Assembly: GCA_038881895.1 (NCBI GenBank)
Contig: JAVZOV010000001.1
Span: forward strand, 434,001 to 498,000
Source: Thermoprotei archaeon
Lineage (GTDB): Archaea; Thermoproteota; Thermoprotei; Gearchaeales; WAQG01
DNA: 64,000 nucleotides
Reading direction: 5' to 3'
This document shows positions 40,161 to 48,476 of this stretch, in pieces. The notes below the pieces were generated by a model. It was not told the DNA's origin. It made no database searches and saw only the letters and a list, made by a program, of their open reading frames with translations. A program made the position numbers and the translations under genes. Each line of letters starts with the position of its first letter. Within the stretch, counting starts at the first letter, position 1.

Positions 40161-41404
40161 GTAAGGCAACTGTTTCTAAATAGATAGATTTTTATAGACG
40201 TTTAGTGTATACTCTATTTGTGGAAATAGTCCTCAGCGTTCCATTCGTTTATGAAGTGAACGACGAAGTTAGAAAGCTCCTAGAGGACTTCAGAGATATG
40301 GTGAACTTCTGCATAGGCTTTGCAGTTGAGAGGAGGATAACCTCTTACGCTAAACTTAGGAAGAGCGTTTATGAAGAGTGGAAGGGGAGGTGGGATTACT
40401 CTACACATTTTTGCCATTCAGCATGTAAAATAGCCTTAGCCATGCTCAAGAGCTTTAGGAGGCTTAAACGTAAGGGATTAGCTAAAGGTGATAGACCTGA
40501 GGCTAGAAAGCTCTTCATGCAACTCGACCCGCAACTGTACAAGTTCTACGGCGATAGGATCAGAATATCCGTTAAGCCCAGAAGATTTCTCTTCATAGAT
40601 TTGAAGTACGGTGAATATCAAAGAAGATTTATAGATGCTTGGAGAGAGGGGAAGCTGAGGACCGGCGAAATCACCATAAACGAGACGAAGATAATCGTAC
40701 CGTTCAAGAAGGACGTAGACCTGTCCAATCCAAGCGACTGGATAGCAATAGATGTTAACGAGTCTAATGTCACTGGAGTAAGCACGAACCCACACGTCAT
40801 GAGGGTTGAAAGCAACTTGAGGACGATCCACACGACCTACTTCAATATCATCAGAAGAATCCAAAGGTTGAAGAAGTTTAAGCCCAAGACTGCTGAGGAA
40901 CTGCTTAAGAAGTATTCTGGTAGAAGGAAGCGCAAGGCTAAAGATGAATGTCACAAAATATCTAGAAAGATCGTAGACTTTGCCAAGCGACATAAAGTTG
41001 GTGTAATAATGGAGGACCTCAAAGGAATTAGAAAAAGAATCAATTTCTCCAAGAACCTCAACCGCAGATTGCACTCATGGAACTTCAGGAGGCTGCAATC
41101 CTACATTGAATATAAGGCTAAACTTGAAGGTTTGCCAGTCGTATACGTCAATCCTAAAAACACTTCAAGCCTATGCCCGATGTGTGGCGGCAGGCTAGCG
41201 CCGAATGGGTATAGGCTCGTGAAATGTGAATGCGGTTACGAAAGCGATAGAGACGTGACCGCGTGCTTAAACATGCTCAGGATGAGGGGAGCCCCGTTGC
41301 CCCAGAAAGCCCTCTATGAGCCTCAAATAATCGAGGTGAGAGGGAAGGGACGAAAGTCTATGAATCCCACAACGGTAATTCAACTATGCATAAAACCAAT
41401 ATGA
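40161..41404 (+). mobile_element. Solo tnpB element related to IS607 (copy E)
   Basis: Left end 'GCAACTGTTTCTAAATAGATAG' (40165-40186 region) followed by TTTTTATAG aligns with the left end of the group 1 elements, but the HTH gene is absent and tnpB begins about 30 bases later. I cannot find the CAGAACCC right end, so the 3' boundary is taken as the tnpB stop. Confidence 0.55.
40205..41404 (+). CDS. tnpB: TnpB, diverged, without an HTH partner (copy E)
   Basis: Up to 399 residues, clearly different in sequence from groups 1 and 2 but with the same order of motifs: Asp in 'IAIDVNESNVTGV', Glu in 'VIMEDLKGI', zinc ribbon CPMCGG...VKCECG and Asp in 'YESDRDVTACLNML'. The frame opens with GTG 40205; GTG 40220 is about 27 bases after the TATA-like TTTTTATA and may be the real start. 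It is expected to retain nuclease activity. Confidence 0.85.
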   Translation: MYTLFVEIVLSVPFVYEVNDEVRKLLEDFRDMVNFCIGFAVERRITSYAKLRKSVYEEWKGRWDYSTHFCHSACKIALAMLKSFRRLKRKGLAKGDRPEARKLFMQLDPQLYKFYGDRIRISVKPRRFLFIDLKYGEYQRRFIDAWREGKLRTGEITINETKIIVPFKKDVDLSNPSDWIAIDVNESNVTGVSTNPHVMRVESNLRTIHTTYFNIIRRIQRLKKFKPKTAEELLKKYSGRRKRKAKDECHKISRKIVDFAKRHKVGVIMEDLKGIRKRINFSKNLNRRLHSWNFRRLQSYIEYKAKLEGLPVVYVNPKNTSSLCPMCGGRLAPNGYRLVKCECGYESDRDVTACLNMLRMRGAPLPQKALYEPQIIEVRGKGRKSMNPTTVIQLCIKPI

Positions 41405-41948: not shown

Positions 41949-42242
41949 ATGACCCTGGGTTTAAATAAGGAATCAAAAAAGGAGAGTAAAGTAGGTGTTT
42001 CGCGTGCTCTTAAAGATATGGTGTATGGAATGGCGCTTCACGGTCAAGTTTCAGCTTTACTAAGAACGAGAATGTATATAGAGCACTTATTTATGCTGAT
42101 GACATTAGGTGATATGCTAGGTTTTCCGTTATTACCACCTTATTATTCGTTAAGATTATTACCGTATGCTGTGCCTAATATTAAGTCGTGGAAGGCTAGG
42201 ATGTTTAGGGAGCACGATTTTACTGATATAATTACTCAATAA
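41949..42242 (+). CDS. Small protein paired with ArsA-like ATPases, paralog 1
   Basis: 97 residues, no known family recognised. The C-terminal half, 'GDMLGFPLLPPYYSLRLLPY' then 'WKARMFREHDF', matches the same region of the 96-residue protein at 44267 ('GEFLGVPLLSNYYTLRLISY' then 'WKKKQMTEKDL'), so the two are paralogs. The middle is amphipathic to hydrophobic, not a clear membrane helix. It is first in an operon whose next two genes are ArsA-like ATPases; a role as adaptor or cargo-binding subunit is inference. Confidence 0.78.
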   Translation: MTLGLNKESKKESKVGVSRALKDMVYGMALHGQVSALLRTRMYIEHLFMLMTLGDMLGFPLLPPYYSLRLLPYAVPNIKSWKARMFREHDFTDIITQ

Positions 42243-42255
42243 AAAGGTGAGTTTA

Positions 42256-43245
42256 TTGGTTGGTTTAAGAGAATTTTTTGAAAAGAATCTTGACGTACGT
42301 GTTGTTATTTTTGCTGGTAAGGGTGGCTTAGGTAAGACCACTTCTAGTGCTGCGTTATCATATTATATGGCTAAGCAGGGTAAGAAGGTGTTATGTTTTA
42401 GTACTGATCCTCAGGCATCGTTGAGTGATATATTTGAGCGTAATATTTATGGAAAAGGTGTTATAGAGTTAGCTCCCAACTTACACGTGATTGAGATTGA
42501 TGCAGATAAAAAGATTGCTGATTATCAGGAGGAGATTAGAAAGAAAATTAAGGATATGTACAAAATTGACGAGATACCTAAAGAAATTGATGAATACATT
42601 TCATCTGCTGCTGCTGAACCTGCTATGTATGAATCTGCGACTTATGATGCTATGGCTGATTTAGTAGCTAAGGGTGAATATGATCTGTATGTTTTCGATA
42701 TGCCACCATTTGGTCATGGTGTAAGAATGGTTGCCATGGCTGAAATATTGGGCAAATGGGTAGAGAAGATTATGGAGGCGCGAAAAATGGCGAAAGAATA
42801 TGAGGAGATTGCTGCAAATTTACGTGGCGGTACCATAAGTGAGGATTTAATACTTAAAGAGCTTCAGGATATTAATAATCGAATAGGCTTGTTTACAAAG
42901 ATTCTAACTGACAGAGCACGCACTGCTTTCTTTATGGTCATTATTCCAGAGAAAATGGCAATTTTAGATACTGAACGTGCAATAAAAATGTTTAAAGAAT
43001 TGAATATGGAGTTATCAGGAATAGTTGTGAACCAGGTATATCCTCCCGAGCTGCTAAAGCAGCCTGGGGTTTCCGAGTTTATAGTAAATAAGATAAAAAT
43101 GCAGTCGCAATATCTTGATGAAATAAAAAGAAAGTTTGGTAAATATCTTGTAGGTCTATTGCCTATGTATTCGCGAGAGCCTAAAGGTCTTGAGATGCTG
43201 AGTAGGGTGGCTGAGGATCTTATGTTGTCACCGTTAAATATATAG
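42256..43245 (+). CDS. ArsA/Get3-like ATPase, catalytic copy
   Basis: About 330 residues of the ArsA/Get3 branch of deviant-Walker ATPases. P-loop GKGGLGKTT near residues 20-28 with the signature Lys, switch I 'STDPQAS', switch II 'DMPPFGHG'. All nucleotide-handling motifs are kept. I take TTG 42256 as start: GGTGA lies five bases upstream, whereas GTG 42247 lies inside that site. Family members form dimers that move membrane proteins or drive anion pumps; the adjacent gene encodes a second, degenerate copy. Confidence 0.88.
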   Translation: MVGLREFFEKNLDVRVVIFAGKGGLGKTTSSAALSYYMAKQGKKVLCFSTDPQASLSDIFERNIYGKGVIELAPNLHVIEIDADKKIADYQEEIRKKIKDMYKIDEIPKEIDEYISSAAAEPAMYESATYDAMADLVAKGEYDLYVFDMPPFGHGVRMVAMAEILGKWVEKIMEARKMAKEYEEIAANLRGGTISEDLILKELQDINNRIGLFTKILTDRARTAFFMVIIPEKMAILDTERAIKMFKELNMELSGIVVNQVYPPELLKQPGVSEFIVNKIKMQSQYLDEIKRKFGKYLVGLLPMYSREPKGLEMLSRVAEDLMLSPLNI

Positions 43246-43262
43246 AGGCAAAGGTGAGATTT

Positions 43263-44261
43263 GTGCAAAATTTAAAAGAGATTCTAGATAAGGGCGCAAA
43301 GTTCGCATATGTAGGCGGTAAGGGTGGTGTAGGAAAAACAGTTGTAGCAGCAGCAATAGCATATTATTATGCGGATCAAGGGCAAAAAACATTATTAGCC
43401 AGCTTAAATCCAGTACATTCGTTATCAAGTCTTTTTGATCAGGATTTATCTGGAGGACAGATTAAAAAAGTTAATGGTATAGAAAATCTTTATGCTCTTG
43501 AAGTAGAAATTGAAGATGCTATTCAACGTTACAGAGAAATGGTGACTAGAAGATTGAGGGAATTCCTAAAATGGGCTGAAATACCTATAAACCCTGAACC
43601 ATTCATAGAAATAGCAACAACAAACCCAGCTTTTGAGGAATCTGCCATGTTTGATAAAATGATGGATGTAATGCTAGAACAAGGTAAGCAATTTGATAAG
43701 ATAATCTTTGATACAGCTGCTGTAGCAAATGCAGTTCGATTAATAGGATTAAGTAAAATATATGGATTATGGCTTAATAGAATGATCGAAAGCAGAAAAA
43801 GTGCATTATCATTAAGAGAAAAATTGAGTTTTAGGAAAGACAAAGTAAAGGAAGAGATCAAAAAGGATCCGATGCTTCTAGACCTTATACAACTGAGTGA
43901 AAAATTTAATACTGCCAGAAAATTTATAGTAGATCCATCACATACTCGATTCTTCTTCGTTACATTACCTTTATCATTACCAATCTCAGTTGTCATACGT
44001 TTCATTAACATGGTAAACGCATTCGATATACCAGTTGGTGGAGTGTTCGTGAATGGTATCATATCAAAATCTGATGCAGAAAAAGATGCATCAGGTTACC
44101 TTAAAAGTAAATACAATGAACAGTTACATTACTTAAATATAGTACACAAAGAATTAGGTCCACTAGTAATAGGTTACATACCCCAGTATTCAAATGAGAT
44201 CGTTGGTATAAACATGTTAAAGAAAACTGTCGAAGACATGCTCACATACACCCCGGAGTAA
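43263..44261 (+). CDS. ArsA/Get3-like ATPase, degenerate partner
   Basis: About 333 residues, paralogous to the preceding ATPase. The P-loop GKGGVGKTV is kept, but switch I reads 'SLNPVHS' (Asn in place of Asp) and switch II 'DTAAVANAV' has lost the PTGH-like sequence. ATP binding is plausible; hydrolysis probably not. The start is GTG 43263, five to seven bases after AAAGGTGAG; GTG 43254 lies inside that site. The order small protein, ATPase, ATPase, small protein suggests an asymmetric complex. Confidence 0.86.
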   Translation: MQNLKEILDKGAKFAYVGGKGGVGKTVVAAAIAYYYADQGQKTLLASLNPVHSLSSLFDQDLSGGQIKKVNGIENLYALEVEIEDAIQRYREMVTRRLREFLKWAEIPINPEPFIEIATTNPAFEESAMFDKMMDVMLEQGKQFDKIIFDTAAVANAVRLIGLSKIYGLWLNRMIESRKSALSLREKLSFRKDKVKEEIKKDPMLLDLIQLSEKFNTARKFIVDPSHTRFFFVTLPLSLPISVVIRFINMVNAFDIPVGGVFVNGIISKSDAEKDASGYLKSKYNEQLHYLNIVHKELGPLVIGYIPQYSNEIVGINMLKKTVEDMLTYTPE

Positions 44262-44266
44262 ATGTT

Positions 44267-44557
44267 ATGGTAACATCATCACCACGTAGAAATTTAACAC
44301 TTAAACAAAAACTCCGAGACTTCTTTTTTGGAATGTTTCTCTTCGATATGCATAGAGAGTTACTGGAAACTTCTAAAAGTTATAAAGAAATTGGAGAAAT
44401 CCTTTTATTAGGAGAGTTTCTAGGTGTGCCATTACTTTCTAATTACTATACCCTCCGACTTATATCTTATTTTGTTAAAGATTTAGAGGAATGGAAGAAA
44501 AAACAAATGACGGAGAAGGATCTATTAGAAGAATTGGGTCATGCGCACATAGATTAA
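44267..44557 (+). CDS. Small protein paired with ArsA-like ATPases, paralog 2
   Basis: 96 residues, basic at the N-terminus, paralogous to the 97-residue protein at 41949 through the 'GxxLGxPLLxxYYxLRLxxY' block and the 'WK' and 'E/H-(K)D' positions after it. It starts five bases after the stop of the second ATPase, so the operon has symmetrical ends. Function not recognised. Confidence 0.78.
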   Translation: MVTSSPRRNLTLKQKLRDFFFGMFLFDMHRELLETSKSYKEIGEILLLGEFLGVPLLSNYYTLRLISYFVKDLEEWKKKQMTEKDLLEELGHAHID

Positions 44558-44631
44558 GAGAACACTATACCTTAGAAATCATTGCACAACATAAAATTTA
44601 TATAAACTATTCTTATTTAATTTCTGGCAAC

Positions 44632-45789
44632 ATGGTCAAGAATGATGAGACAAAGAAATACATCATATTATTAGCTCTTTTTAGAGTTTTAAGAAGTACA
44701 TCAGCAGGGCTCATAGCATTAGCATTTCCATACTTGGTGTTGCAAAAACTTTCGTATGGTTCATTTACGCTTGGGTTAATATATACAGCCGCAACAATAG
44801 CAACCGCAGTACTTGGTATACTTTTTGGTTTTATTGCTGACATATATGATCGAAAACAAACACTGATAATAGTAGCATTATTACTTCCTCTCAGCTCACT
44901 TCTAATCTATATATCGAATAACCTTTTCGTCTTATTTTTAGCTGCAATGTTAGGTGGATATTCTGCGACAGGTTCGTTATCAGGTGGAGGTATTGGAGGT
45001 GCAGCACAACCAATACAGAATGCACTAATCGTGGATTTAACCAAATCTGAAAACCGAACTTTTTATTTCTCAATACTTACATTCATAGGTGGCATTACGG
45101 CTGCAATTGGCTCATTAGCAGCCAGAGTATTTACAATAGATCATGCATTCTTGGTGGCAACCTTAATCTCAGCACTTTCGGTTATTGTTGTTCTTCCCAT
45201 TAAAACACATAATACAAGAGGAAAAATAAACAAACTTAAAAGTAAAGTAGTAATAGGTAAGTTTTCACTCACCGGAATGATTAACGGTTTTACACAAGGC
45301 TTAGTTACACCATTCTTAATACCGTTCTTCTACATAGTTTATAACATACCCAAATCAGAAATGTCAATTTATGCATTCATAAGTGGATTCATAGGATCTT
45401 TAGCACTTCTTCTTGCACCATATCTAGAACGTTATTTTGGCTTCGTGAAAAGTATAGCAGTAACTAGGGGTTTAGGAGCAATCTTAATAATCTTACTACC
45501 TTTAATTAGAATACTGCCTGTCTCATTAGTAATATATTTTGCATTACCAGCATTAAGGATTATGGCCTTACCAGTTCAACAGTCCACAATCGCAGAAATG
45601 GTAAGTTCAGATGAAGTAGGAAGAGCATTAGGAATAAATCAAGTAACACGTCTCGCTGCTTCATCAACTGGAATTACATTAACAGGATACTTTTTTGATA
45701 CACCAGAAATAGAGCTACCATTTTATATTTATGGCATAATGATGTTTATTAATATTTATCTCTACTTCAAATTTTTCGGAAATAAGTAA
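44632..45789 (+). CDS. MFS transporter
   Basis: About 385 residues, eleven to twelve membrane helices. The loop 'GFIADIYDRKQTL' between helices 2 and 3 is the MFS signature. I place the start at ATG 44632: TTTATATAA at about 44599-44607 lies the right distance upstream for a leaderless message, and the earlier part of the open frame overlaps the small protein gene without homology. Because it has its own promoter, it may be independent of the ATPase operon. Substrate unknown. Confidence 0.87.
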   Translation: MVKNDETKKYIILLALFRVLRSTSAGLIALAFPYLVLQKLSYGSFTLGLIYTAATIATAVLGILFGFIADIYDRKQTLIIVALLLPLSSLLIYISNNLFVLFLAAMLGGYSATGSLSGGGIGGAAQPIQNALIVDLTKSENRTFYFSILTFIGGITAAIGSLAARVFTIDHAFLVATLISALSVIVVLPIKTHNTRGKINKLKSKVVIGKFSLTGMINGFTQGLVTPFLIPFFYIVYNIPKSEMSIYAFISGFIGSLALLLAPYLERYFGFVKSIAVTRGLGAILIILLPLIRILPVSLVIYFALPALRIMALPVQQSTIAEMVSSDEVGRALGINQVTRLAASSTGITLTGYFFDTPEIELPFYIYGIMMFINIYLYFKFFGNK

Positions 45790-46323: not shown

Positions 46324-46518
46324 ATGTCTGGAGATTACGAAGAACTGCTTAGACCAAAAGATGTTGCAAAGATATTCAACATCTCAGTTAAGACTCTCTG
46401 GGAGTGGCAGAGGAAAGGCATTATTAGAGCTGTTAAACTTCCAACTGGCAAGCTCCGCTACCCGAGGAGCGAAGTTGAGAGGCTATGGAAGCAGTTAAAA
46501 GCTACAGGATCCCAGTAG
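46324..46518 (+). CDS. HTH-only IS607 TnpA derivative, copy C
   Basis: 64 residues: a short 'MSGDYEE' head, then the same helix-turn-helix as copy A ('LLRPKDVAKIFNISVKTLWE', 'LPTGKLRYPRSEVERLWKQL'). The head differs from copies A, B and D, showing this copy is an older or separate sub-branch. No recombinase domain follows. Overlap with tnpB is 34 bases; the ATG is about 30 bases after the left-end TTTAAATA box. Confidence 0.82.
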   Translation: MSGDYEELLRPKDVAKIFNISVKTLWEWQRKGIIRAVKLPTGKLRYPRSEVERLWKQLKATGSQ

Positions 46519-47633
46519 AGGCTCCAAAAGATTTAATCGAAGAATACTTCAAAGTTAAGCAGAAGGCTTTAGACGCAATATTCTCGCACGTTAAAATTTC
46601 CAAGAAGGCTCACCTTAACTTGAAAGCTGAGGATAGGAGAGAGCTTAGGGATGAACTGCTACGGGAGTGGAAATACTCAAAGCATTACGTTGACTCAGTA
46701 ATGAACTCTGTCGTAGGACTTGTTAAAAGCTGGATAACGCTCTATAACAAGGGGAAAGCTGAAGGTAAGCCTGAGATAACTAAAAAAACCGTTTACATCA
46801 AGAGCACGCTCTTCAGCTTCAGAAACGGTATACTGAAGGTAAGCATTGAGCCTAATAAGCGGTATCTTGAGGTTGACTTGAGTAAGTGTTCGTGGATTCC
46901 AAGAGACTTTGATAAAGTCGGTGGGCTACTTATGACCGAGAGGGAGTTGATAATCGTGATTAAAAAGGAGGTGGAGCTAAAAGCGGAAGGTTGGGCTTCC
47001 TTCGATGTTAACTTAACAAACATAACAACTTTCATAGACGGGAAGATAGAGCGATATGACTTAAGAGAGCTTTACCACATTCATAGAGTTTATGAGGTAA
47101 AGCGGCAGAGGATACAAAAACTCATGAAGTTTAAGCCGAAGACCTCTAAAAAACTCCTCAAAAAGTACTCTAAGCGTGAGAGGAATAGGGCTAAGGACTT
47201 CATGCACAAACTAACCACGCAGGTTGCGGGAGAGCTCAAGGAGAAGGACTGCGGAGCAATACTTGAAAACCTGAAAGGTATAAAGGGGCGAATCCTCAAC
47301 GGCTCAAGGAAAAACAATAGAAAGCTCTCAAAGTGGAACGCAAGAGCATTCCAGTTCATGCTCGAATACAAGCTGGAGTGGCTTAACTTACCAGTGAAAT
47401 ACGTTAACCCAGCTAACTCATCTAAAACCTGCCCGGCCTGCTCTGGAAGCATGGCCTCCTGTCTGGGCAGGATAATGAAGTGCGAAGAATGCGGGTTAAC
47501 AATGGATAGAGATATCATAGCAGTGTTGAACCTTCAGATGCGGGGAATTGGGTTCACCCAAAGAGCCCTCAACGAATTAATTGAGGGGGAAGGGTTAAGT
47601 AGGAATAAAAGCAACATATGCATTCCTACTTAA
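46485..47633 (+). CDS. tnpB: TnpB of group 1 element, copy C
   Basis: 382 residues, near-identical to copy A over long stretches, with RuvC residues in 'ASFDVNLTNITTF', 'AILENLKGI' and 'LTMDRDIIAVLNLQ' and zinc ribbon TCPACSGS...MKCEECG all intact. The most different part from copy A is the segment 'LMKFKPKTSKKLLKK'. Like copy A it ends within the right-end hairpin. Confidence 0.9.
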   Translation: MEAVKSYRIPVEAPKDLIEEYFKVKQKALDAIFSHVKISKKAHLNLKAEDRRELRDELLREWKYSKHYVDSVMNSVVGLVKSWITLYNKGKAEGKPEITKKTVYIKSTLFSFRNGILKVSIEPNKRYLEVDLSKCSWIPRDFDKVGGLLMTERELIIVIKKEVELKAEGWASFDVNLTNITTFIDGKIERYDLRELYHIHRVYEVKRQRIQKLMKFKPKTSKKLLKKYSKRERNRAKDFMHKLTTQVAGELKEKDCGAILENLKGIKGRILNGSRKNNRKLSKWNARAFQFMLEYKLEWLNLPVKYVNPANSSKTCPACSGSMASCLGRIMKCEECGLTMDRDIIAVLNLQMRGIGFTQRALNELIEGEGLSRNKSNICIPT

Positions 47634-47861: not shown

Positions 47862-48476
47862 ATGTACCCTGGAGATGAGAGCATAAGACAGTATTATAAA
47901 AGGCTTGCGTTACTTGCGATACGTGAACTAAGTGAACGTGGTATTAGAGGTAGTTATGTAGAAAGTCGAAGTAATGCTGTAGAGGTTTTGTTTTCAATAA
48001 TACCTGATGGTGCTTCCATAATGGTGAGTGATTTAGAAATTGTCGATGAGTTAAACATATCTAAGATTCTTGAAAGTGGGAAATATAATTATTTAGGTAA
48101 GAGAGTTCATTCTGAGAGTGATCCTGAGAGAAAGTATGACCTGCTTCGTACTAGTACGATAGTTGATTATTACATTGGTAGTGTAAGTGCTCTATCCGCT
48201 ACTGGAGAAATGGTCATAATAGATGAGATTGGAGCTGAGCTGGCTAGTTATTCATATGGTGCTAAAAACGTTATTCTAATTGTTGGTATTAATAAGATTG
48301 TTCCCACTTTGGATGATGCTGTGAAACGTGCACGGACCTATGTTGCGCCAATTAAAGCTATAAAATTAAGAGCACCTACACCAACGAGTACAATAGGTAA
48401 GACGCTTATAATTGAGAGAGAAATTAAAAAAGGAAGAATAACAGTAATAATAGTGGGTGAATTTTTGGATATATAA
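47862..48476 (+). CDS. LUD-domain protein (LutC/YkgG family)
   Basis: 204 residues matching the LUD (DUF162) fold: 'ESRSNAVEVLFSIIPDGASIMVSD', 'YYIGSVSALSATGEMVIID' and 'VILIVGINKIVPTLDDAVKRA' occur in the usual order. LutC takes part in L-lactate oxidation with LutA and LutB; neither partner is here, and single LUD proteins occur widely. TTTATATAA lies about 25-30 bases before the ATG, so the message is probably leaderless. The gene end is close to, and convergent with, malate dehydrogenase. Confidence 0.85.
   Translation: MYPGDESIRQYYKRLALLAIRELSERGIRGSYVESRSNAVEVLFSIIPDGASIMVSDLEIVDELNISKILESGKYNYLGKRVHSESDPERKYDLLRTSTIVDYYIGSVSALSATGEMVIIDEIGAELASYSYGAKNVILIVGINKIVPTLDDAVKRARTYVAPIKAIKLRAPTPTSTIGKTLIIEREIKKGRITVIIVGEFLDI

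Follow-up and report, generated by a model that had tools for sequence, protein, structure and literature searches.

How ATPases of the ArsA family are coupled to membrane carriers is poorly understood. In the ArsAB arsenite pump the ATPase energises a carrier that also works alone; here ArsA is one fused chain with two ATPase halves, both of which have the switch I aspartate in structure 9nbl. The related Get3 ATPases are defined by a CxxC zinc motif at the face of the homodimer. Mycobacteria possess two ArsA-like ATPases, BagA and BagB (Rv3679-Rv3680), both of which are present in 6bs3 (chains A and B). Closest to the present locus is a system put forward by Castillo and Saier (2010), who compiled 26 instances in which cstA occurs with an arsA homologue, and proposed that CstA, the carbon-starvation transporter, draws its energy from ArsA, perhaps by way of CstX (PMC2963123). 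In their cluster 15 the ArsA homologues of Pyrobaculum arsenaticum and Symbiobacterium are adjacent pairs, and the former organism has two CstX. The available part of that article suggests homodimers and states that the aspartate of the SXD motif is replaceable only by N; no consequence is drawn there. In E. coli CstA together with YbdD imports pyruvate, and deletion of ybdD lowers pyruvate uptake to 20% of wild type (excerpts of PMC5847655). E. coli CstA alone restores pyruvate uptake, which is driven by the proton gradient (excerpts of PMC7730263). The CstA of Ignicoccus hospitalis doubles in co-culture with Nanoarchaeum (excerpts of PMC3149612).

Here we analysed a four-gene operon from a Thermoprotei archaeon. 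As in the Castillo-Saier operons, as far as their account was available, single-domain ArsA homologues of about 330 aa belong with cstA and cstX (about 90 aa), and ars genes are absent. Unlike them, the two ATPases differ in a fixed manner where homodimers had been suggested, and cstA is unlinked in the source genome. We found no report of this fixed asymmetry in the literature searched on Get3/ArsA heterodimers, CstA-ArsA and CstX, which took in only a minority of subscription papers and no bioRxiv preprints. As far as this literature shows, in which only PMC2963123 dealt with the system, what is new is that the pair's catalytic asymmetry is strictly conserved, and the rest is a variant of the system proposed in 2010. 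An earlier note, made from the sequence of the locus alone, had suggested a possible new variation on Get3/ArsA. Because CstA is the likely partner and an ArsA-CstA-CstX proposal is in print, we instead regard the operon as a variant of the described system and not as a new variation on Get3 targeting.

Results

Two ATPases flanked by two small proteins

The window, i.e. the entire stretch of 64,000 nucleotides that was analysed, carries the operon at 41949-44557. Four nearly abutting genes on the plus strand code for a small protein (sA), ATPase A, ATPase B and a second small protein (sB), and thus the mirror-like layout described in the earlier note is real. Both ATPases belong to the ArsA/Get3 family. 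ATPase A (42247..43245, +; 332 aa; PF02374, E = 2.9e-71) has the P-loop AGKGGLGKTT with the signature lysine of the deviant Walker A motif (42313..42342, +), switch I STDPQAS with the catalytic aspartate (42400..42420, +) and switch II FDMPPFGHGVR (42694..42726, +). The paralogous ATPase B (43254..44261, +; 335 aa; PF02374, E = 2e-53) has the P-loop GGKGGVGKTV, again with the signature lysine (43314..43343, +). Its switch I reads SLNPVHS, asparagine replacing aspartate (43401..43421, +), and the Gly-His of switch II is lost (FDTAAVANAVR; 43707..43739, +). All Get3 signature motifs, i.e. P-loop, switch I and switch II, are therefore present in A and the P-loop alone in B. This agrees with the earlier reading of STDP and PFGHG in A, and of a retained P-loop with SLNP and AAVAN in place of the other motifs in B.

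An arsenic pump was ruled out. The ATPases are encoded by separate genes, unlike the fused ArsA with an aspartate in each half, and score 100 and 97 bits against TIGR04291, which has a cut-off of 650 bits; neither arsB nor arsD was seen at the operon. The likeness to ArsAB is that of a related ATPase in a system where ArsA also has two ATPase halves. To BagA and BagB the pair is only distantly similar. ATPase A scored 48 bits with either and ATPase B 58 and 27 bits, whereas the equivalog models NF053622 and NF053621 require 400 bits for BagA and 521 for BagB.

Does the pair act as a targeting factor? It shares the family and the P-loop and, in ATPase A, the switch motifs with Get3/TRC40, and a Get3-like pair might deliver the hydrophobic CstX or CstA to the membrane as a targeting or assembly factor. 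The single-domain Get3 type fits this, the closest PDB relatives of both ATPases in a sequence search including the archaeal Get3-like proteins 3zq6 and 3ug6, and so do the small partners near most paired loci (see below). However, any CxxC was present in just one of the 60 A sequences and in none of the 62 B sequences, so the zinc motif of Get3 is missing, and CstA is polytopic and not tail-anchored. Two distinct paralogues and the link with a transporter also set the pair apart from Get3. We consider this explanation decidedly unlikely. As a first choice, tail-anchor targeting was set aside on account of the missing CxxC and the CstA linkage.

The catalytic asymmetry is invariant

The asymmetry was examined in 132 full-length ATPases, 60 of type A, 62 of type B and 10 single-type, with classes assigned by profile score and not by motif. 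The switch I aspartate was present in every ATPase A (60/60; STDPQAS or SVDPQAS). In every ATPase B its place was taken by asparagine (62/62; S[LTF]NP[VI]HS). ATPase B has also lost the second aspartate, LSD having become LSS, LSG or others. ATPase A lacks the histidine of the usual DPAHS/N. The P-loop was conserved in 59 of 60 A sequences, the exception being a truncated row, and in all 62 B sequences. Switch II of ATPase B occurs in grades: two archaeal sequences have DTAPVAHTYR, 12 bacterial ones DTAPTANARR and the other 48, including that of the window, AA[VI]AN. With a uniform switch I and a graded switch II, the asparagine is common to every B and the loss of Gly-His is a matter of degree.

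A tree was built from 78 rows that remained after thinning at 80% identity. Each ATPase type was a single clade in it (SH-aLRT 99 apiece), and one change suffices to explain the switch from aspartate to asparagine. The sequences thus point to a single origin of the A-B duplication; the root is the weakest part of the tree because of the long branches of the single-ATPase outgroup. At 59 loci the mean pairwise identity was 57.2% among A and 55.8% among B sequences, and 31.7% between A and B of the same locus. In two relatives (G025 and G049; L040:2984-3984 and L048:7284-8289) ATPase A is split over two reading frames by a frameshift, a sequencing error or decay.

These data bear on the possibility that ATPase B is a decaying duplicate, or that A and B form separate homodimers. 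The loss of the switch I aspartate and, in the type found in the window, of the switch II Gly-His would agree with this. Yet B is nearly as conserved as A, its asparagine is never mixed with another residue, its P-loop is complete, and all 22 genomes of the phylum sample that carry B (see below) have an A-type match adjoining it. Hence we give very little credit to either version. A pseudogene was ruled out by the invariant asparagine and the near-equal conservation.

What does the asparagine mean? The aspartate of the STDP motif is, we take it, D57 of Get3. In yeast Get3 D57 is catalytic, and the D57N mutant binds ATP without hydrolysis (PMC12506534, available part). According to PDB alignments, the ArsA structure 9nbo differs from 9nbl by asparagine for aspartate at the switch I motif of both halves, presumably an engineered trap. 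From the behaviour of D57N, ATPase B is predicted to be a natural version of this hydrolysis-dead mutant; the asparagine in 9nbo is an independent pointer to it. Of the asymmetric heterodimer claimed in the earlier note, the asymmetry is borne out by the two invariant residues and their one origin; the heterodimer itself is a prediction. A pair with one subunit frozen as the classic hydrolysis-dead mutant would be a natural system to learn the role of each ATP site.

The small proteins are probable CstX copies

The small proteins sA (41949..42242, +; 97 aa) and sB (44267..44557, +; 96 aa) are paralogous as had been noted. A search with sB finds sA in the same genome (E = 1.1e-11), and both match the NCBIfam model NF041419, 'cory-CC-star' (E = 2.4e-8 and 5.1e-7), with scores far below its 80-bit cut-off. 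Those small proteins beside single-ATPase cstA operons that were tried also matched NF041419, all below the cut-off. From size and context we infer that NF041419 is CstX. At about the 90 aa of CstX, sA and sB look like two copies of it. The term 'cory-CC-star' was found in no paper of a literature search that reached few subscription papers and no bioRxiv preprints. A Pfam search of 29 small proteins gave nothing useful (best hit 0.0022, a nucleoporin model). CstX in the Castillo-Saier system has one transmembrane segment; in sA and sB the highest 19-residue hydropathy is 1.33 and 1.29. An AF2 model of sA has one long helix (residues 8-56) and short helices at a moderate pLDDT of 78; a PDB fold search with it returned no match under E 0.001.

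Both small proteins were present in 15 of 61 genomes (the source genome and 60 relatives). In 14 of these 15 they flank the ATPase pair, and in the remaining one (G001) the contig ends before the ATPases. The four-gene arrangement is far beyond chance. Gene order was then compared in 63 non-redundant paired loci, the window excluded, several of them cut by contig ends. At least one small gene was nearby in 59 of these: two in 45 loci, three in 3 and one in 11, leaving 4 with none. The small proteins are thus conserved with the ATPases, which was one of the tests that the earlier note had named for its proposal. A small gene directly after ATPase B occurred in only 19 of the 63 loci. Elsewhere the second small gene is upstream in tandem, upstream of or beyond cstA, or on the opposite strand. 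The mirror order is lineage-specific and one of several, and it lends no support to the suggestion that each ATPase was duplicated together with its small protein.

A CstX tree (75 rows, 89 columns) was poorly resolved, 14 of 72 inner branches being starred. Most copies adjoining ATPase A, including sA, form a slow group; the second copies, including sB, evolve fast. The tree is too short to date the duplication. Three paired loci of the Chloroflexi-phylum sample (L127, L128 and L129) have a third CstX-like gene after ATPase B.

The module is linked to CstA

In most relatives the module adjoins a protein of 550-600 aa which is CstA (PF02554, E = 6.8e-108 at locus L053). Among the 61 genomes CstA was present in 19, including all 15 with both small proteins. 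In the four CstA genomes without the pair (G021, G039, G057 and G059) cstA has a lone ATPase and one small protein as neighbours. G001, which belongs to a different genus in the family of the source genome, reads C, sB, cstA, sA up to the end of its contig (L037). Of the 63 paired loci 54 have cstA within the available sequence.

The source genome is different. Its cstA is on the same contig, 37.5 kb from the operon and outside the window (G000:C1:515520-517304). The neighbours of this cstA are the recurring genes C (about 156 aa) and D (about 200 aa, one helix), the latter probably CstY of Castillo and Saier; the operon is at the other locus. Given this distance the operon was probably separated from its usual neighbours. 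The earlier statement that no arsenic or tail-anchor partner gene is nearby is correct within the window but misses cstA as the likely partner.

Protein C (L053:5739-6206, L109:13207-13686) is a beta-rich, recurring neighbour of cstA and is not among the genes described in the available part of Castillo and Saier. A model of the L053 copy had a pLDDT of 94. A PDB search ranked the Tsi3 immunity protein and PsbP-type folds highest and Mog1 below them, with E values no better than 1.6e-4 and a TM of about 0.45-0.5. Protein C has two invariant cysteines, and a C-terminal Cys-His is present in 11 of the 12 copies that were aligned. The last residue of several sB copies is His. A small protein beside a single bacterial ATPase (L137:1981-2271) ends in Cys-Cys and had the top NF041419 score of those tried, 53 bits. 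A C-terminal metal or thiol motif common to the small proteins and protein C is possible.

Distribution of the pair follows CstA

In a phylum sample of 250 evenly drawn genomes ATPase B was called in 22, all of which scored at least 458 bits. The next class did not exceed 237 bits, and the threshold was chosen after this gap was seen. CstA was detected in 52 genomes (E 1e-10). It was present in all 22 genomes with ATPase B compared with 30 of 228 without (Fisher p 1.4e-17, uncorrected for phylogeny; 8 families). The cstA gene was located at most 3 kb from the module in 20 of the 22; the exceptions are the source genome and G171, which has cstA on another contig. Of the 30 CstA genomes without the pair 13 were examined (L110, L111, L138-L146, L156 and L157). 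In twelve of them cstA is close to an ATPase of the ArsA type; one archaeal cstA (L156; genome G087, group f16) has none beside it.

A scan of named genomes yielded 29 loci labelled as Thermoproteota or Crenarchaeota, Nitrososphaeria, Geothermarchaeota, Bathyarchaeota, Asgard and a few bacteria, many of them from metagenome bins whose labels may be wrong. At E 1e-50 the ATPase B profile matched in 33 of 251 genomes from the phylum of the Chloroflexi locus, and in 13 of 249 from that of the Firmicutes locus, 5 of the 13 with a single match.

A putative ATPase module for CstA

With moderate confidence we propose that A and B form a heterodimer in which one site hydrolyses ATP and the other holds it, and which docks through CstX to drive or gate CstA. 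The operon would thus supply a CstA transporter with its cytoplasmic ATPase module; what is observed is linkage and co-occurrence, and from these we infer the interaction. As a co-inherited paralogue pair of this fold family, A and B would be an obligate Get3/ArsA-type heterodimer. Because both retain the P-loop with the signature lysine, both sites probably bind ATP across the dimer face. Going by the motifs, hydrolysis would take place only at the site with the aspartate of A, and the site of B would hold ATP. The one-sided cycle would be passed on to CstA by the two CstX proteins, probably as membrane-associated adaptors. In this way the module would drive or gate the import of pyruvate, peptides or a related substrate by CstA, as ArsA does for ArsB.

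The E. coli system is similar in that a transporter of the CstA family is joined by a small partner protein needed for uptake, as the excerpts cited above describe it. It differs in that it has no ATPase module, is driven by protons and complements with CstA alone. The CstA family as such does not need an ATPase since E. coli CstA alone works on the proton gradient. This, the archaeal cstA of G087 without an ATPase and the unlinked cstA of the source genome speak against a motor. The low NF041419 scores, the moderate sA model, the long outgroup branches of the tree and the split ATPase A of G025 and G049 also count against the proposed module. Might the A-B dimer then be a gate or sensor that binds ATP and releases or blocks a proton-driven CstA according to the energy state? 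A non-hydrolysing half would suit a switch, and the E. coli and G087 cases fit. On the other side, the invariant hydrolysing motif of ATPase A suggests that ATP turnover is probably used, and we consider a pure gate rather unlikely.

Within the preferred reading, a module that drives or gates CstA, we suggest tentatively that CstA is primary-active. A half-site ArsA/Get3-type heterodimer, fixed long ago with one catalytic subunit and one that holds ATP permanently, would with two CstX adaptors make an ATP-driven transporter out of a proton-driven pyruvate/peptide carrier. If true, the ArsA family would have its equivalent of those ABC transporters in which one site is degenerate, and ATP may power nutrient transporters that are widespread in archaea and bacteria. 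CstA also becomes the likely partner for genes otherwise annotated as arsenical pump or Get3 ATPases.

Genes around the operon

An ORF for an MFS transporter (44491-45789; PF07690, E = 8.3e-29) overlaps the end of sB. Its true start is probably further in, and there is no sign that it belongs to the ATPase/CstX system. The operon and this neighbour are flanked by genes for TnpB-type RNA-guided nucleases (NF040570) at 40205-41404 and 46485-47633, which are 38% identical over 343 aa. A connection between these two genes and the parting of operon and cstA is possible. A LUD-domain protein (47862-48476; PF02589, E = 3.8e-29), of a family known from lactate utilisation, is encoded nearby. The source genome has a third Get3/ArsA-family ATPase of 391 aa (G000:C1:2227-3402; L049), which with GKGGVGKS and a PSGDALK-type switch II belongs to a different subgroup.
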